From a virus: 41,786 bases of DNA. A model generated the notes under the pieces. That model saw only the letters and a program-made list of their open reading frames with translations. It did no database searches and had not been told where the DNA came from. How positions within the stretch are numbered: the stretch's first letter is position 1; the number at the start of each line of letters is the position of its first letter. The stretch covers positions 1 through 41,786 of the IMG/VR virus record IMGVR_UViG_3300031699_000004, one strand, 5' to 3'. This document shows positions 4,781 through 40,959 of the stretch, piece after piece. A program made the position numbers and the translations under genes.

Positions 4781-5129
4781 TCCCCGCAAGACCCTCCGTG
4801 GCAGGGTGGCGGTGCTGCGTTCGCACGGGCTCGACGATCTCGCGGCGCGCATGGTGGTCATGCCCGACATCAGCGTCCGGGCCGCTCGCGAACTCGAGCA
4901 CGTGTGGCGCAACTACCGCGGAGGTCTGCAGCGGATCAAGGAAAACGAATGCGGGGAATTCTGGCGCAGCGTGTGGGCCATGCTGCGCTACAGCACCGAG
5001 CGCGGCGACCGCGAGGCGGCGGTCGAGGTCCTGGACCGCGCCCTGGATAGGGTGGAGCCGGCGACGGCGAGGCGCGGCCCGTGGGGATTCTTACGTTGCG
5101 TTGGCAAAGGGGAAGATGATGAGCGTTAG
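4773..5129 (+). CDS. hypothetical protein
   Basis: The 118-residue protein is charged and mostly helical (ELEHVWRNYRGGLQRIKENE), with no known motif. The GTG at 4773 overlaps the end of the small terminase by eight bases, and this frame reads as natural protein, whereas the other frame open here does so only from 5119. The position right after Nu1 might suggest a packaging accessory, but that is only context. Confidence 0.6.
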   Translation: MDDPRKTLRGRVAVLRSHGLDDLAARMVVMPDISVRAARELEHVWRNYRGGLQRIKENECGEFWRSVWAMLRYSTERGDREAAVEVLDRALDRVEPATARRGPWGFLRCVGKGEDDER

Positions 5130-5382
5130 AATTGTATCGGGCAGCCCGAAGTGTCCCAAGTGTGGTCATCCGCCAGTGAGAATCGAAATCAAGCGTTCTG
5201 GCGGGGTGCCTTGGGAATACGCGGAAATTGACTGGTGCATGGTTTCGCTGGTAAAGGCGCTGAACAACGCAGGATTGGAAACCAGATGGAGTTGTTGCGG
5301 TCATGGCGAAGCAAATCCGGTGGTGATTCTGCGCGATGGACGGAAGGTAGAGGTATTCCCGCTAGAGGAAGGAGGTGCGTGA
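5119..5382 (+). CDS. small zinc-ribbon-like protein
   Basis: The 87-residue protein has a CPKCGHPPVRIEI knuckle near its start and a second CCGHGE motif, consistent with one zinc ribbon. It overlaps the previous gene by 11 bases. Two adjacent ATGs (5116 and 5119) follow AAAGGGGAAG; 5119 has the better spacing. Base composition is visibly less GC-rich than the head genes, as in the next few genes, suggesting recent acquisition. Confidence 0.65.
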   Translation: MSVRIVSGSPKCPKCGHPPVRIEIKRSGGVPWEYAEIDWCMVSLVKALNNAGLETRWSCCGHGEANPVVILRDGRKVEVFPLEEGGA

Positions 5383-5581
5383 TGGACGCTGAGAGCGGTT
5401 ATGACGCCGTGGAAGGCTACAGAACGCCCGAGTGTGAGATTAACCCTACGACATCGGCTACTGGAAGCGATACGATGGCAAGAGCCGAAACGCGTGCGGC
5501 ATTGATGAGATAGAGCGGGCAGGATGGGATGCGTGCGATGCGGAGCTAAGGGCCGAGCGCCGGGGCGGGGGTGAGAAGTGA
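5382..5581 (+). pseudogene. small gene broken by a one-base frameshift
   Basis: From the ATG at 5382 (AAGGAGG upstream, TGATG overlap) the frame reads sensibly to about CEINP at 5445, then continues as poor sequence to a stop at 5513. In the frame one base back, the DNA from about 5446 reads PYDIGYWKRYDGKSRN and then IDEIERAGWDACDAEL, ending at 5581 with a GTGA overlap to the next gene. That overlap shows the second frame is the true 3' end. A single missing base near the CCC at 5443-5445 explains both halves. It may be a real mutation, a sequencing error, or rarely a recoding site. Confidence 0.7.
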
Positions 5582-5775
5582 GCTGGGGAGAACGGAGCTG
5601 CAAGCATTACTGCGCCGATTGTCCGGTAGAGAATCCCACCATCGGCACCTGCAACCCCAACTGTCCGAGCTACGAGAGCAACGGCGAACCGCCCGACACA
5701 ATTGACGGGCCAACTATACTAGGTCAATTCTTCTTGGCGAAACACAAGGCCGAGCGCGGGGACGGGGGTGAGTGA
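5578..5775 (+). CDS. small Cys-rich protein
   Basis: The 65-residue protein has six cysteines in about 28 residues (SCKHYCADCP, then GTCNPNCPSY), which suggests a metal-binding knuckle. It starts at a GTG overlapping the previous stop. The last residues (KAERGDGGE) are the same as those of the next gene because they lie in a duplicated gene-boundary sequence. Function unknown. Confidence 0.65.
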   Translation: MSWGERSCKHYCADCPVENPTIGTCNPNCPSYESNGEPPDTIDGPTILGQFFLAKHKAERGDGGE

Positions 5776-5779
5776 TGGC
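5745..5779 (+). repeat. 35-base gene-boundary repeat (copy 1)
   Basis: This segment is identical over 35 bases to 6161-6195, and a diverged version lies at about 5548-5576. Each copy encodes the C-terminal RAERxGGGE or KAERGDGGE tail, supplies the GGGGGTGA ribosome-site-like sequence, and ends at the start of the next gene. It could act as a homologous joint for swapping small genes. Confidence 0.85.
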
Positions 5780-6191
5780 CGTACATATTGGGTATGACGC
5801 AGACGGGGCTAACGAGCCAGAGGAAGCCGTGAGCGGGGAAGCAGTGATGGACGAAGCGATTGAGCGTGCGGCAAATGCTGCCGACCTGGCGTTTCAAGAG
5901 TTCCTTGCTGGTGACATGCCCGATGACTGCCAGTGGCCGTTTGTTGTCCGCGCCGCCATCAAGGCGTACTTGGCGGGGACGCCGGAAGTGAGCGACAGTG
6001 CCAGTACACAACAGCTCATTGAAGACTATAGCCAGCTTCGCAGTGCAGGTTGCGAACTGGCGTCTGCGGCCATGCGGGTGATTGGTCACTTTGATGGTTG
6101 CCACAGATTGGCGTCTGCGGTAGCTGAGTGGGCTAGGGTCGTATCCGAAGAAGGCGGCCGCAAGGCCGAGCGCGGGGACGGGGGTGAGTGA
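5775..6191 (+). CDS. hypothetical protein
   Basis: The 138-residue acidic protein has no recognised domain. It is preceded by the boundary repeat, whose GGGGGTG provides the ribosome site, and it ends inside the second copy. The ATG at 5775 is preferred to a GTG three bases earlier. The body includes AIERAANAADLAFQEFLAG and a C-terminal helical half. Composition is lower in GC than the structural genes. Confidence 0.6.
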   Translation: MAVHIGYDADGANEPEEAVSGEAVMDEAIERAANAADLAFQEFLAGDMPDDCQWPFVVRAAIKAYLAGTPEVSDSASTQQLIEDYSQLRSAGCELASAAMRVIGHFDGCHRLASAVAEWARVVSEEGGRKAERGDGGE

Positions 6192-6195
6192 TGGC
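6161..6195 (+). repeat. 35-base gene-boundary repeat (copy 2)
   Basis: Exact copy of 5745-5779 at the junction between the 138-residue and 74-residue genes. Confidence 0.85.
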
Positions 6196-6415
6196 TAAGA
6201 AGAAACGCAAGTGTACCGAGCGTCCCGAGCGTTGCCAAAACTGCAAGCACTTCACGACCTACTACAACTCGTGTTCCTATGTTCTATCGCGGGGCGGCAG
6301 CTACGACGAGTGCGTATGCAGTACGCCGCTGGGGCACCTTTGCATGGCCGACAAGGACCGCCCGCAGGTCTGTAGCGAAAATGGCTGGTGCGAGTTGTTC
6401 GCCAAGGTCCGATAA
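6191..6415 (+). CDS. small Cys-rich protein
   Basis: The 74-residue protein begins with a basic tail (AKKKRKC) and has eight or more cysteines, including CQNCKHF and CVCSTPLGHLC, a pattern typical of small phage zinc-binding proteins. It starts at the ATG at the end of boundary repeat copy 2. No function can be assigned. Confidence 0.65.
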   Translation: MAKKKRKCTERPERCQNCKHFTTYYNSCSYVLSRGGSYDECVCSTPLGHLCMADKDRPQVCSENGWCELFAKVR

Positions 6416-9094: not shown

Positions 9095-9418
9095 TCAGTC
9101 CTGCAGCGATGTCCACAGCGCATAGAGGTGGTGCGCGGGGATGTTGCGCCCGCCCTCCCAGCCCTCCCATGTGCGCGGCGAGACCCCATCAGGCAGCAGT
9201 TCCCAGCCGCGCAGATCGCGTAGCGCCTGCAGCCAGCCGCGCTGCGCCTCGCGCTGGTCGAGGCTGCTCAGCACCCCGCCGCCGCCGCACCACCATCCGG
9301 TCGGCAGCCAGAGCAGCGCCTGCGTGCCGACTGTCCCGCAGAGCAGCGCGCCCTGCGGCAATGGCGACCGGCCCCAGTATTTGCGGCCAGCCTTGGTATC
9401 AACGGTTATGGTGCTCAT
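9095..9418 (-). CDS. small HTH-like regulator in leftward module
   Basis: The 107-residue protein is encoded opposite to the head genes. Its C-terminal 40 residues (VSPRTWEGWEGGRNIPAHHLYAL) look like the recognition end of a Cro/CI-type helix-turn-helix; the N-terminal half is Gly/Trp-rich and unrecognised. The ATG overlaps the upstream partner's stop (ATGA). The shared promoter contains a palindrome between its -10 and -35, so autoregulation is likely. Expression in a prophage as an independent 'moron' is an inference. Confidence 0.6.
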   Translation of the reverse strand: MSTITVDTKAGRKYWGRSPLPQGALLCGTVGTQALLWLPTGWWCGGGGVLSSLDQREAQRGWLQALRDLRGWELLPDGVSPRTWEGWEGGRNIPAHHLYALWTSLQD

Positions 9419-9675
9419 GCCGGCCACGCAATCGCGGCCAAGCGATCCAGCTCGACCTGCACATCCGCAGGCTTGTTAGGGCCGGCGTGCTTACGGTTGA
9501 GCGCGCACCAAGCCAACTCGGCGTCGTACTTGGTCATCGCCGCCTTGGATTCCGCGCGGTGCGCCGGCGTCATGGTCCAGGCATCGCGGCGATTTGCGGC
9601 CACGTCTCCATGATCAGTGGCGGCTGTCTCGCGACTGTCGTCGTAGCGGGCGTCATTGTCAGGTCTGCCGGTCAT
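9415..9675 (-). CDS. first gene of leftward module, unknown function
   Basis: The 86-residue charged protein (MTPAHRAESKAAMTKYDAEL in its centre) has no known domain. The ATG is preceded by a strong GAGGAGG ribosome site and by a sigma70-like promoter. It is coupled to the HTH-like gene by a four-base overlap, an arrangement also seen in toxin-antitoxin and immunity pairs. There is no specific evidence for either. Confidence 0.6.
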   Translation of the reverse strand: MTGRPDNDARYDDSRETAATDHGDVAANRRDAWTMTPAHRAESKAAMTKYDAELAWCALNRKHAGPNKPADVQVELDRLAAIAWPA

Positions 9676-14884: not shown

Positions 14885-14900
14885 TCGCGTCCTGGACACC

Positions 14901-14935
14901 GGGAGGGCGCGACCGAAACTCCGGCGCGCCCTCCC
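14901..14935 (+). terminator. probable intrinsic terminator or attenuator
   Basis: A perfect 11-bp stem (14901-14911/14925-14935) is followed by a pyrimidine-rich, partly T-rich stretch (GTCTTCTCTT). It lies after the decoration gene and could reduce transcription into the tail genes relative to the capsid genes. Confidence 0.55.
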
Positions 14936-14968
14936 GTCTTCTCTTGACCATTGACCGTGGAGGTCCCG

Positions 14969-29462: not shown

Positions 29463-30458
29463 CTACCTTACCTCGATCTTGTCGCTCCACTCCCCGCTGA
29501 GCGCGGCGTAGTGCCGCCGGCAGACGTTCGGTGAGTTCCCCATCCACTCGGCGATCTGGTACAGGCTGACGCCCTGCTGGGCCAGCAGGCTCCCGAAGGT
29601 GTGCCGGAAGATGTTCCATCCGCACGGCTGTCCGCTGCGCTTCGACAGGTCCTCTATGTAGTGGTTGAGGTACCCCCCGATGCGGCCGGACATGATCTTC
29701 TCGCGATAGCTCGCCGGCAGGGCGTCGCTGGCGTCAGGGGTGAAGAGCGGATCGCGTTCTTTGGCGCCGGCCTTCCGGCGGGCGGCGATGTGGCTGCGCA
29801 GAACGGTCACGAGCTTCCTGTCCAGGGGCACCGACCGGCCGCGACGGGTCTTGGTCTTCCTGACGGCAAGCAGCCGGCGCTTCAGGTCGACGTCCCGGAG
29901 GTCCAGGTGGACCAGCTCCCCGAAGCGAGGCCCGGCGTAGATCGCCGTGTCCACCAGCGCCCGGTAGTAGTCTTTCCGGGAGGCCTTCAACACCGCGGCC
30001 CGGGCCTTCTTGTCGAGGTAGGAGATCTCCGGCTGGTCGGGCTCGAGCACCCGTGCCCCGTCGAGGGGGTTATCCCGCGCCCAGCCCTTGCGGACGCAGT
30101 AGGCCAGGAAGGCCCTGGTGATGAGCATGTACTGATTGTAGGTGGTCTTCGCGCCCTTCTCGAGGACGCCGGCCAGGAACTCCTCGACGCCGGCGCGTTT
30201 GAGGTCCCGGAACGTGGATACCCCTGTTTGCGCGCACAATCGCTTCAGGCGGTTGAAGTCGGTCTGCCAGGTGGTAGGTGCCACCTTGCCCTTGCGCGTG
30301 GCCATGAAGGCATCTACGGCGGCAAGGGCCGCCATTCCTGAGCGCGGCACGGTCTGATCGGGGAAGATCGCCTCGCCCCGCCGCCAGCGCTTCTGGAGAT
30401 CCTTGTGCTTGGCCCGGGCGATGGCGTCCTGCCGGGGCGACCGCAGGCGCAGGGACAT
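29463..30458 (-). CDS. int: tyrosine-recombinase integrase
   Basis: The 331-residue enzyme joins phage and host attachment sites through a covalent Tyr-DNA intermediate. An N-terminal SAM-like core-binding domain (about 45-130) is followed by the catalytic domain with R178 (YAGPRFGEL), a Lys near 203, R285-H286 (FRHTFGSLL) and nucleophile Y317 (RRHYAAL). Asn 282 and Asn 308 (WMGNSP) stand where His or His/Trp are usual. ATG at 30458 is chosen; a TTG six bases upstream is possible. It shows the phage is temperate, and it is transcribed against the tail operon. Confidence 0.92.
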   Translation of the reverse strand: MSLRLRSPRQDAIARAKHKDLQKRWRRGEAIFPDQTVPRSGMAALAAVDAFMATRKGKVAPTTWQTDFNRLKRLCAQTGVSTFRDLKRAGVEEFLAGVLEKGAKTTYNQYMLITRAFLAYCVRKGWARDNPLDGARVLEPDQPEISYLDKKARAAVLKASRKDYYRALVDTAIYAGPRFGELVHLDLRDVDLKRRLLAVRKTKTRRGRSVPLDRKLVTVLRSHIAARRKAGAKERDPLFTPDASDALPASYREKIMSGRIGGYLNHYIEDLSKRSGQPCGWNIFRHTFGSLLAQQGVSLYQIAEWMGNSPNVCRRHYAALSGEWSDKIEVR

Positions 30459-30537
30459 TCGCAAGCTGCGTCTGCGTGAGTTTCTTGCGTTTTCTCGCGC
30501 GCCGCAAATGCATGGCTATCTCACTGTCCCAAGGCAT
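30450..30537 (-). pseudogene. XRE-like HTH fragment overlapping integrase start
   Basis: A different minus-strand frame, from the ATG at 30537, encodes about 25 residues (IAMHLRRARKRKKLTQTQLA) that look like the first helices of an XRE repressor. It then runs into the integrase gene in the wrong frame. This may be a decayed repressor or a frameshifted extension of the integrase. Only the start is protein-like. Confidence 0.35.
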
Positions 30538-31333: not shown

Positions 31334-31534
31334 CGTGTCGCGCGGTTGCATCGAGTTCAGGGGCACCTTCTCACCAAGACTGCTGACGGGGAGTGCGCTC
31401 GACGGGTCGCCTTCGCCCGCGAGCCGCCGGCGCGCGCACGCACGCGCGTCGGCCTCCCCAACCGGTCCGAGCTTATCCATAGTCCCCTCCCCCCGCAAGC
31501 AGTCTGCCGCAACAAAGCAGGGGGCACAAGGCCA
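31334..31534 (+). other. 200-base non-coding leader with inverted repeats
   Basis: No convincing gene lies here. An 8-bp perfect inverted repeat (31377-31384/31498-31505) brackets most of the gap, and an alternating GC/AC tract lies near 31430-31450. It precedes the HTH gene at 31535, so it may hold its promoter and leader. Confidence 0.4.
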
Positions 31535-33436: not shown

Positions 33437-33708
33437 CGGGGAAGGAGATCGTCGCGAGCCTCGCGGAGGAACTCCGCGACGATCTTCTTACCCATGAGGA
33501 AGCCGCGGCGCTGCTGCGCCTGAGCCCCGCGCGACTCCGGGCCATCCGGCACAAGCTGGCGGCGATGGGCGCACGGTATATGGTGCTGCCCGGTCGCGGC
33601 AAGGGCAAGAACGAAACATGGCGGTGGTCGCGGCAGAGCCTGCTGGACCTCGCGCGCACGGCGGAGGACCAAGCGGGGATTCACGCCGGGGGGCGCGGCC
33701 GTGCTTGA
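33433..33708 (+). CDS. small HTH protein (excisionase/MerR-like)
   Basis: The 91-residue protein has the excisionase-type pattern LLTHEEAAALLRLSPARLRAIRHKL, followed by a wing-like GARYMVLPGRGKGKNETWRWS. Such proteins bind DNA and can direct excision by the integrase or regulate genes. The GTG start overlaps the previous gene by four bases. Confidence 0.65.
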   Translation: MTGKEIVASLAEELRDDLLTHEEAAALLRLSPARLRAIRHKLAAMGARYMVLPGRGKGKNETWRWSRQSLLDLARTAEDQAGIHAGGRGRA

Positions 33709-33830
33709 TTGCATGAAGTGCAGCATGTACTCGCGCGAGACGCTGGCGGTGGCCAGGGCCTTCGGCAACTGCGGCCGGATGTTCTACTGCCGCGGATGCC
33801 GCGCGAAGGAGATTTCCGAGGGCTGTGGGA
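33701..33830 (+). CDS. zinc-knuckle N-terminus, 3' end uncertain
   Basis: From the GTG at 33701 about 37 residues read as a real Cys-rich protein (CMKCSMYSRETLAV, then CGRMFYCRGCRAKE). The frame then stays open to 34408, but the rest is Gly/Pro/Ser/Arg-rich, has a different third-base pattern, and coincides with the densely folded segment from 33818. No stop exists near 33830. The natural end is therefore unclear: either the protein is extended through the folded region or only its start is meaningful. Confidence 0.4.
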
Positions 33831-34402
33831 AGGGAGCGGCGGGCACTGAAAAACTACGATCGCAGCGCCCTGCGGTGGAAGTCCGCAACGAAAGCCCGGA
33901 CGGGGGCGCTCAAGGTCGCATCGGCGGCCAAAGTAGCGGGGCACCGAAAACCCGCGAAGCGGTCGCTGCTCCCTTCCCACATTCCTCCGACGAGTCAACG
34001 TCCCGGGCGCTGCCGGGGGGGCAGCGGCCGAAGCACACGGCGCGTGCAGGCCGCGAGGGCGCGGACCGCCCTCGGCCCGGGACCAGCCATACCTCATGCG
34101 AGGCGAAGAAGCCTGGGCGAAGCGCGGATAGCCCCGGCGGAGCCGTGAATGGTCTGAGCGGAGACACGCCGAAACTCAGCGGCGAGATCGACGCCGGCGG
34201 GAAGCATAGCGCCGGGTCGAGAGGAATGGGGGCGCCCGCCGAAACCCGGCGCCCCCACACAAACGAGCAGCCAGGGCAACTAGGCCCTGCTGAGGTCCCG
34301 GCGCGCGGCAATGTGCCGGCGGGGGCGGTCCAATCCAGATCTCTTACTGAAAAACCTCACGCCCTTGACAGCCGGGGGACCGTGTCCCCCCGCGCCGGGA
34401 CC
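33818..34402 (+). ncRNA. large structured RNA candidate (about 585 bases)
   Basis: Four successive domains fold by long perfect helices. Domain 1: 33824-33842/33963-33981 (19 bp, two G-U), enclosing 33864-33870/33904-33910, 33871-33875/33883-33887 and 33936-33940/33951-33955. Domain 2: 34000-34008/34075-34083 (9 bp) around three hairpins, including 34054-34061/34067-34074 (8 bp). Domain 3: 34154-34158/34175-34179, 34189-34199/34210-34219, 34227-34236/34248-34257 (10 bp) and 34268-34277/34284-34292. Domain 4: 34294-34305/34391-34402 (12 bp) closing 34306-34310/34314-34318 and 34374-34380/34384-34390. GAAA-type loops recur. Size and multi-domain layout recall GOLLD and ROOL phage RNAs; no such identity is proven. 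Confidence 0.72.
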
Positions 34403-34410
34403 AACTGATT

Positions 34411-34599
34411 ATGGAGCGATGGGTGGTGGAAGAGGTCAGCACCATGGGCGGCGAGGCGCGGGGATACCGGGTGGTCACAGCCAAGCGGCGCAAGGTGATC
34501 TGCGAGGGCATCCGCAGCCTGAAGACCGCCAGGCTCATCGCGGCGACGCCGGTACTGCAGGAGATCCTGCGGCGGGGGCGGGAAGGGTCGGTGAACTGA
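34411..34599 (+). CDS. small hypothetical protein
   Basis: The 62-residue basic protein (GYRVVTAKRRKVICEGIRSL) starts nine bases after the last helix of the folded segment. No clear ribosome site lies between. It overlaps the next start by one base. A small phage protein of unknown function, possibly a nucleic-acid binder. Confidence 0.55.
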   Translation: MERWVVEEVSTMGGEARGYRVVTAKRRKVICEGIRSLKTARLIAATPVLQEILRRGREGSVN

Positions 34600-34979
34600 T
34601 GGCCCACCGCAAGAAGAAGTACCCGCCCCGCCGCGTCGCGCAGCTCGCCGACTGCAGGCGCTGCGGCAAGAAGGTGCTGTGGCTGCCGGAGAGCGAGGAC
34701 TACTGCGCGCGGCGCGACGGCCCGTGCAACCCGGAAGCTGTGGGTATCGACTGCTGGACGCGATCCGAGGAAGCGGACACCCACGGCTTCACCCGTACGG
34801 GCATGCGCCTCGACGGCCGGCGGGTTGACACCCGCGACCAGGCCACGCGCTACGTCCAGGTCTACACCCGGCACTACTGCGACCCGGCGGACATCGAGAA
34901 GCACCGCGAGCGGGCCGAGACCGCGGCCGAGCCTGTGCCCGCCGAGACGTGGGGCGCGGGGAGAGGGATGGTGGACTGA
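34599..34979 (+). CDS. small Cys-containing protein
   Basis: The 126-residue protein has an N-terminal basic segment and a CRRCGKKVLWLP zinc knuckle. Further Cys residues (DYCARRDGPC, then CW) could complete a zinc site. The ATG overlaps the previous stop. No known family. Confidence 0.6.
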   Translation: MAHRKKKYPPRRVAQLADCRRCGKKVLWLPESEDYCARRDGPCNPEAVGIDCWTRSEEADTHGFTRTGMRLDGRRVDTRDQATRYVQVYTRHYCDPADIEKHRERAETAAEPVPAETWGAGRGMVD

Positions 34980-37486: not shown

Positions 37487-37789
37487 GTGGCAAAAGCACA
37501 TGCGACCATGGATATGTTCGTCGACGAGAAGACCGGTGAGACGCTGGACCCGGTCAGGACCAGGGCGGTGCTGAGGCTCAGCGGGCCGATCAGCCGGCTC
37601 TGCGCGCAGCAGTATCGCTTGGAGCGCCGCAAGAAGGAAACGGCGGCGCAGGTCAAGCTGAACAAGGAACGGCTCGGCAAAGCAATGGCCCTCCTGGACC
37701 AGGTGCGCTTCGGCGAGTGGCAGGAGGTCCTGGTCGACGAGATCGCCGAGATCGAGAGCGACGCCGAGAAGAGCGAGGAAGAGGAGTAG
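37487..37789 (+). CDS. helical small protein
   Basis: The 100-residue protein is a likely coiled coil (AQQYRLERRKKETAAQVKLN) with a strongly acidic tail. GTG start one base after the previous stop. Its place next to the helicase gene suggests a partner protein, but this is context only. Confidence 0.55.
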   Translation: MAKAHATMDMFVDEKTGETLDPVRTRAVLRLSGPISRLCAQQYRLERRKKETAAQVKLNKERLGKAMALLDQVRFGEWQEVLVDEIAEIESDAEKSEEEE

Positions 37790-39402: not shown

Positions 39403-40378
39403 GCGCAAGGGGGCCGACGCCGCCGCCGTCGAGGCCAACCGTGCTAAGGCGCGAGGGCGCAGCAGTGCTGCCGACATCGCCATTTACAACCGGGACTGCA
39501 TCGAGGGCATGCACGACGGACCGGCGGACTCGGTCGACCTGGTGGTGAGCAGCATACCCTTTGGGGCGTTGTTCATGTACTCCGGCAAGACCGAGGACAT
39601 CGGCAACAACTCCGACGGCGTGGACATGCACGCCGGGCAGTTCGGGCTGCACATGCGATTCTTCTTCCAGGAGCTGGTGCGGGTGATGGCACCAGGTGCC
39701 GTCTTCGCCTGCCATGTGCAGCAGCTGAACACTACCAAGGTGCAGCACGGCTACATGGGCATGCGGGACTTCCGCGGCGCGGTGATCACGCTGGCCCGCA
39801 ACCACGGCTTGGACCCGCATGGCGAAGTGGCCATTCCCAAGAACCCGCAGGCGGTCGCGCAGCGCCGCAAACTGCACTCGCTGATGTTCGTGACCGGCAA
39901 GCGCGACAGCCGGGCGCTGGCGCCGGCGGCCAATGATTACGTGCTCTTCTTCCGCAAGCCGGGTGAGGGTCAGGCAGTGCGCGGGCTATATGACCCCAAG
40001 GACAATCCCGAGGGATGGTTCTCGCAGGATGATTGGATCAGGTGGGCGCGTGGCGTATGGGATGACATACTCGAAATCGACGTGCTCGAGGGCTACCGCG
40101 CGGCCAGGGGCAGCGAGGAAGAGAAGCACGTCTGCCCGCTGCAACTGGAGGTTATCCGCCGGTGCATCTACCTATACAGCCGGCCGGGCGACTGCGTGAT
40201 GGACCCGTTCATGGGCATCGGCTCGACGGCCTGGGTGTGCGTCGAGACCGGCCGCTGCTGCACGGGCTTTGAACTCAAAGAGAGCTACTACCGCACGGCG
40301 CAGCGCAACGTGAAACGCGCGCTGGAGAAGTTCTCGCGGGAAGAGGTCGACCTGTTCAAGGTGAAGGGTGATAGATGA
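39392..40378 (+). CDS. phage DNA methyltransferase (SIPF type)
   Basis: The 328-residue enzyme has the catalytic motif SSIPFGA (S54-F57) in place of DPPY, a form found in phage N4-cytosine or N6-adenine methylases. The AdoMet site is DPFMGIGSTAWV from D271, and FELKESYYRTAQRN follows. It probably protects phage DNA. A second methylase is encoded at 230-1585. GTG at 39392 after GGAGGTGCTT; TTG at 39389 is possible. Confidence 0.85.
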   Translation: MPRRRKGADAAAVEANRAKARGRSSAADIAIYNRDCIEGMHDGPADSVDLVVSSIPFGALFMYSGKTEDIGNNSDGVDMHAGQFGLHMRFFFQELVRVMAPGAVFACHVQQLNTTKVQHGYMGMRDFRGAVITLARNHGLDPHGEVAIPKNPQAVAQRRKLHSLMFVTGKRDSRALAPAANDYVLFFRKPGEGQAVRGLYDPKDNPEGWFSQDDWIRWARGVWDDILEIDVLEGYRAARGSEEEKHVCPLQLEVIRRCIYLYSRPGDCVMDPFMGIGSTAWVCVETGRCCTGFELKESYYRTAQRNVKRALEKFSREEVDLFKVKGDR

Positions 40379-40959
40379 AGGCGGCCGAGGCGGAAGCCCT
40401 CGTGGATGAGTTCATGCCCTACGCCTACAAGGTCGCGCACGAGTTCTCCAAGACTCGGGGGATGAGGCATCCGGGGGTGGACATCGATGGCGCGGCGAAT
40501 GAAGCGATGGCCGAAGCGCTGCGGACCTGGAAGAAGGGCAGGGGCGCGTCGTTCAAGACCTGGCTGACGGCCAGGGTGTGCTACCGGATTCGGGACGCGT
40601 GGAGATCTGCATACAAGTACCGCTGCAACAGCCGGGGCGAGATAGTCAAGCTGCACAGCATCGAGGGATATCTCGACAAGATGACCGTGAATGGCGTGGA
40701 TCATCCGCTCTGCGCGATCCTGCCGCCGGTCCCCGCTGTCGATGTGGAGTCGCAGATGGAAGGTGTCGGAGAGGCCTGCGCGCGGCTTGAGAGGCAAATG
40801 GGGGTGTGTTTCTCGCTGCGTGAGCGCGATGTGCTTATCGCCTACATCGAGTATGGCACCTTGAAGAGAGCCGCCGAATACCTGGGGGTCAGCGAGAGCC
40901 GCGTTTGCCAGATCGTGGGCGATGTGCGCCGGCGCTGTGAGATCGCGCTGAGCAACTAA
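40375..40959 (+). CDS. phage sigma-70-like factor
   Basis: The 194-residue protein matches the sigma-70 group. Region 2 spans about residues 8-75 (FMPYAYKVAHEF, then NEAMAEALRTW and FKTWLTARVCYRIRDAW), and region 4 lies near the C-terminus (LKRAAEYLGVSESRVCQIV). It may redirect host RNA polymerase to phage promoters. It overlaps the methylase by four bases and lies just upstream of the end junction and the late genes, so it may act as the late switch. Confidence 0.75.
   Translation: MKAAEAEALVDEFMPYAYKVAHEFSKTRGMRHPGVDIDGAANEAMAEALRTWKKGRGASFKTWLTARVCYRIRDAWRSAYKYRCNSRGEIVKLHSIEGYLDKMTVNGVDHPLCAILPPVPAVDVESQMEGVGEACARLERQMGVCFSLRERDVLIAYIEYGTLKRAAEYLGVSESRVCQIVGDVRRRCEIALSN

Follow-up and report, generated by a model that had tools for sequence, protein, structure and literature searches.

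In the rightward early operon of a temperate phage, we found an element of about 117 nt (domain 4) that looks real and, judging from comparison with the sequence of one relative, appears to be kept by its structure rather than by a protein code. It lies in a longer stretch, 33830-34405, and the interpretation that we tentatively prefer for this stretch is that of a non-coding structured part of the early-operon transcript, in which domain 4 acts in cis whatever gene follows it. The window analyzed, that is, the whole stretch of 41,786 bases (G+C 66%), is a virus record from IMG/VR and contains terminase, portal and capsid-protease genes. Because it also carries an integrase gene (29463-30464, minus strand), the phage is by inference temperate. 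The rightward early operon opens with the gene for a CII/YdaS-like regulator at 31346, spans the structured region (33818-34402), which sits mid-operon amid densely coding early genes, and continues with genes for a helicase, a methyltransferase and a sigma-like protein. The last of these, a small protein encoded at 40375-40959 at the end of the operon, matches sigma-70 regions 2 and 4 and is perhaps a late-gene regulator. Elsewhere in the window, the first half of the single protein encoded at 53-1585 resembles ParB-like partition families and the part nearer its end resembles DNA methyltransferase families (PHROGs), which suggests a putative ParB-like/methyltransferase fusion, and further long stretches with little coding signal are present at 5011-6360, upstream of the terminase gene. 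The features of the structured region and its borders are as follows:

33701-33830, + strand: start of a small zinc-knuckle gene, with a GTG start and CxxC...CxxC; G+C by codon position 0.48/0.56/0.88
33815-33990, + strand: domain 1, a long closing helix (33824-33842/33963-33981) around several hairpins; z -4.7
33855-33922, + strand: sub-threshold twister-sister-like match within domain 1, with the would-be cleavage between 33911 and 33912
34000-34086, + strand: domain 2, a four-way junction with a 9-bp closing stem, GTCCCGGGC/GCCCGGGAC; z -2.5
34092-34291, + strand: domain 3 block, a branched element (34092-34223) and hairpins at 34227-34257 (10 perfect pairs) and 34268-34291; z -2.9
34290-34406, + strand: domain 4, a four-way junction of about 117 nt with closing stem 34294-34305/34391-34402; z -3.9
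34411-34599, + strand: next gene, 62 aa, its start codon 8 bases past the domain 4 helix; kept in the related contig L017, replaced by an unrelated gene in the related phage L038

A sequence-only reading of this DNA had held that the open frame is non-coding beyond its zinc-knuckle start, and both the frame scores and the G+C content by codon position agree with this. Under a codon model built from 17 clear genes, frames switch cleanly from gene to gene both before and after the region, and between approximately 33830 and 34405 no frame clearly scores as coding; the signal fades near 33830 and is back at 34411, while the frame itself stays open to 34408. The three codon positions of the open frame have G+C contents of 0.72/0.66/0.71, compared with 0.65/0.49/0.86 in the clear genes. 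The stop-free frame comprises 189 codons, a length that about 5% of shuffles reach, and the lack of stops therefore argues only mildly for coding. A protein-coding gene continuing past 33830 would be expected to leave codon periodicity and a codon-position bias of substitutions; we found neither, the latter having been assessed in domain 4, where the changes relative to the relative's copy fall 17/14/16 over the three codon positions.

Folding of the region was stronger than expected from its composition. The predicted energy of 33818-34402 was -317.2 kcal/mol, compared with -279.8 +/- 8.2 kcal/mol for dinucleotide shuffles (z -4.6), and none of 100 shuffles folded as well. The minus strand folds equally well (z -4.8), and folding alone therefore picks neither strand, nor RNA over DNA. 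When 200-nt windows were scanned across the genome (n = 416; z -0.46 on average, sd 1.26), that at 33801 had the second lowest value (z -4.7), although several other places in the genome reach a similar z. The lowest value of all (z -6.7) belongs to a window containing a strong hairpin of 12 perfect pairs at 14900-14936, after the head-decoration gene; a T-rich stretch follows this hairpin, giving it the look of an intrinsic terminator. No perfect inverted repeat in the genome is longer than the one of 14 bp inside the structured region, which also holds one of the genome's four 12-bp repeats. Given that 3 of 40 whole-genome shuffles also reached 14 bp, the long helix of domain 1 is unusual rather than extreme, and it is the accumulation of helices that stands out. 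The dense, long, nested helices described from the sequence alone do form at the places proposed in an unconstrained fold; however, the stem at 33824-33842/33963-33981, described as 19 perfect pairs, consists of 17 Watson-Crick and two G-U pairs (33838/33967 and 33842/33963). The signal is uneven, ranging from z -4.7 in domain 1 to z -2.5 in domain 2, and the region is not distinguished by A-richness of its unpaired bases. Taken with the coding scan, the fold z-scores bear out the proposal of a large, non-coding and unusually structured segment within the early region of a phage.

Searches with neighboring proteins identified two close relatives of the operon among viral contigs, L017 (24,016 bp) and L038 (32,077 bp). 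L017 stops at the beginning of its homologue of the 34411 gene, so that the position of the element is unreadable there. One 100-residue protein (37487-37789) is 97% identical to its L017 counterpart, several of its neighbors being approximately 50-70% alike, and either recent exchange or strong constraint may account for this. L038, likewise a temperate phage, carries an integrase and a repressor-like gene. In its operon, a small gene is followed in turn by a two-zinc-ribbon gene (9106-9534), a homologue of domain 4 (9541-9660), an unrelated gene of 92 residues and a homologue of 34599-34979; the domain 4 homologue thus occupies the matching operon position. In the middle of the two-ribbon gene, 9258-9425 has an open frame, no codon periodicity and an ordinary fold (z -1.0). 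The zinc proteins of the two phages have no detectable likeness and matching structural proteins are just 25-41% alike, which indicates that these phages are mosaics with this piece in common. The genes immediately flanking domain 4 differ between the two phages while domain 4 itself stays, and it is therefore not tied to one gene.

When folded separately, domain 4 and its L038 copy give the same four-way junction. Across the 27 proposed pairs, 94% of the cells stay paired in the alignment with L038, and paired columns changed less often than unpaired ones (22% and 56%, respectively). At four pairs both partners are altered and pairing is retained: in the second hairpin a G-C pair is replaced by C-G, and in the third two G-C pairs are replaced by C-G and an A-U pair by G-C; none of the four involves a G-U pair. 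Registers slid by 1-3 columns gave 0 or 1 compensatory changes. In simulations at the paired-column rate, at least four double changes arose in 0.4% of runs, and at least four together with at least 24 of the 27 pairs kept in 0.01%, figures that concern two sequences and a structure read from those same two, for which a letter shuffle is uninformative. Unpaired letters, such as AACCTCACG, are kept as well. The proposed structure is thus backed by compensatory change in domain 4, against a single homologue. A covariance model of domain 4, run over 37 loci and 13 whole records, yielded no further convincing copies: domain 4 itself, read on the reverse strand, ranks third (22 bits), and the weak matches in L018, L004, L006 and L021 (14.8-17.1 bits, E 0.5-1.6) were discounted as chance.

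In the collections searched, we found no relatives of domains 1-3. Queries with the open frame and with the next gene returned nothing among viral contigs, the phages reached through the helicase and capsid proteins were distant and lacked the element, the phage and plasmid collections gave nothing convincing, and no relative emerged when bacterial genomes were searched at the protein level. Two stretches from a DNA-pattern scan were rejected, as the domain 4 model did not support them. Domain 2 has its junction shape, closing stem and 3′ end in common with domain 4. However, the domain 4 model gives it just 8.6 bits, and about 1% of the 130-nt windows of this genome fold into such a junction; that domain 2 is a diverged copy of domain 4 is therefore possible, no more. 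The ten letters ACTGAAAAAC occur in both domain 1 and domain 4, which may be due to chance.

Domains 1-3 may in fact belong outside the cis element. There is a real, if minor, chance that they are sequence in decay or under no selection, or else form a disordered, fast-changing tail of the zinc protein, folding well by chance, and that only domain 4 is functional. The end of the open frame, two bases ahead of the next start codon, would fit this reading, as would the aperiodic middle stretch of the L038 zinc gene, and the lack of homologues and the similar z-scores found elsewhere in the genome point the same way. Against this, the third codon position has the G+C content of 0.71 given above rather than the 0.86 of clear genes, and domain 1 taken alone folds better than every shuffle.

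How the element might act can be framed as follows. The region would fold during transcription into a string of compact branched domains, and domain 4 would work in cis on the early transcript irrespective of the gene that follows. It might do so by engaging the transcribing polymerase in an antiterminator-like manner, by analogy with the put RNA of HK022; alternatively, it may serve in separating or processing mRNA between two gene modules. That domain 4 is kept in place while its neighbors change argues for an element acting on the transcript rather than a switch for one gene. We infer an action in cis, through RNA rather than DNA, with an effect on the transcript. This is favored by the location of the element, which is in the rightward early operon of two phages that both carry an integrase, by the absence of a T-run terminator from the region (no intrinsic terminator was called in 33700-34410) and by the G-U pairs of the domain 1 helix, which can form only in RNA of the + strand. 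On the other hand, the equal folding of the minus strand and the lack of G-U pairs among the compensatory changes count against a cis-acting RNA, so a DNA cruciform is possible; a promoter-like site, too, was looked for in the region and not found.

We consider it rather unlikely that the whole region is a stand-alone ornate RNA acting in trans, resembling GOLLD or ROOL in manner and belonging to another family, with domain 4 as the conserved 3′ domain and domains 1-3 as the fast-changing 5′ part. Its size, elaborate folding and phage origin would suit such an RNA. However, L038 has domain 4 without domains 1-3, there is no sign of a promoter or terminator of its own (no promoter-like site was found for the region), and no Rfam family matched. 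Membership of GOLLD or ROOL itself, suggested in the sequence-only reading, did not hold: Rfam searches at gathering and relaxed thresholds gave no match, GOLLD (RF02032) being absent up to E 10 and ROOL (RF03087) likewise unmatched, although the single-family ROOL search was silent in control genomes too and is weak alone. Neither the window nor the L038 record has a tRNA gene (ARAGORN, RF00005). Group I introns (RF00028, up to E 10) and group II introns (a D1-D4 model and other Rfam group II models, RF01998 being among those used) were not matched either.

A DNA element, such as an origin or a recombination or protein-binding site working as extruded hairpins, is quite unlikely. In its favor, both strands fold alike and domain 4 is located where the two phage mosaics change partners; however, a G+C content of 70%, lacking any A+T-rich stretch or iterated direct repeats, is unlike known replication origins, and the conservation of unpaired letters also speaks against it.

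Two further proposals involve the twister-sister-like match in domain 1, which we treat as a lead only. This is the sole match of the family (RF02681) in the genome and it falls within the structured region, with a predicted cleavage at the C-A step of the cleavage strand (C33911-A33912). It scores 15.6 bits against a cut-off of 34, short of membership, and its E value of 0.035 for that family in this genome becomes 3.6 when all families are counted. Where the family has its SL4 loop and cleavage strand, domain 1 carries similar letters, GGUGGAAGUCC and GCGCUCA. However, GCAG(C) stands in its core loop in place of the family's GCAAG, and the best local structure is more stable than the twister-sister-like fold by approximately 10 kcal/mol. 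In twister-sister cores described in the literature, the internal loops comprise five and six nucleotides (PMC11620745). It is very improbable that the region represents an undescribed class of large phage RNA, a string of branched domains with repeated cloverleaf-like modules ending in ACCA (domains 2 and 4) and, in domain 1, a diverged twister-sister-type ribozyme that would free the 3′ part from the early mRNA. That domain 1 holds an active, diverged twister-sister ribozyme, self-cleaving to separate the 3′ part from upstream mRNA, is hardly to be expected given the low score and altered core.

To our knowledge, few structured RNAs of phage early operons have been described. Domain 4 provides a concrete and testable new element of about 117 nt, whose neighboring genes differ between the two phages that carry it. 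Should it act on transcription, it would be one more RNA regulator of that sort, and if domains 1-3 prove to belong with it, the whole would represent a new class of ornate phage RNA.

Comparison with known systems helps to place the region. Domains 2 and 4 resemble tRNAs in being three-armed junctions whose 3′ strand ends in CCGGG-ACCA; they differ from them in lacking a T loop and in their stem lengths, and the ACC is paired in the window. GOLLD and ROOL are often near tRNA genes or islands, and GOLLD has a conserved 3′ part and a variable 5′ part (PMC12286853). Our region is likewise large, multi-domain, phage-encoded and non-coding, whereas it has no match to their models and no tRNA island, and is conserved in domain 4 only. 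The HK022 put RNA, of about 70 nt with two stem-loops, lies close to the PL or PR promoter and makes polymerase read through terminators (PMC9378689). Domain 4 does not have the two-stem fold of about 70 nt near an early promoter that is typical of put; it folds into a four-way junction, measures about 117 nt and lies roughly 2.5-3 kb inside the operon. What it would share with put, as a proposal only, is being a compact structured RNA in the early operon of a temperate phage, independent of the following gene. While the region is undescribed in Rfam 15, a structured phage RNA in an early operon is itself a known kind of thing.
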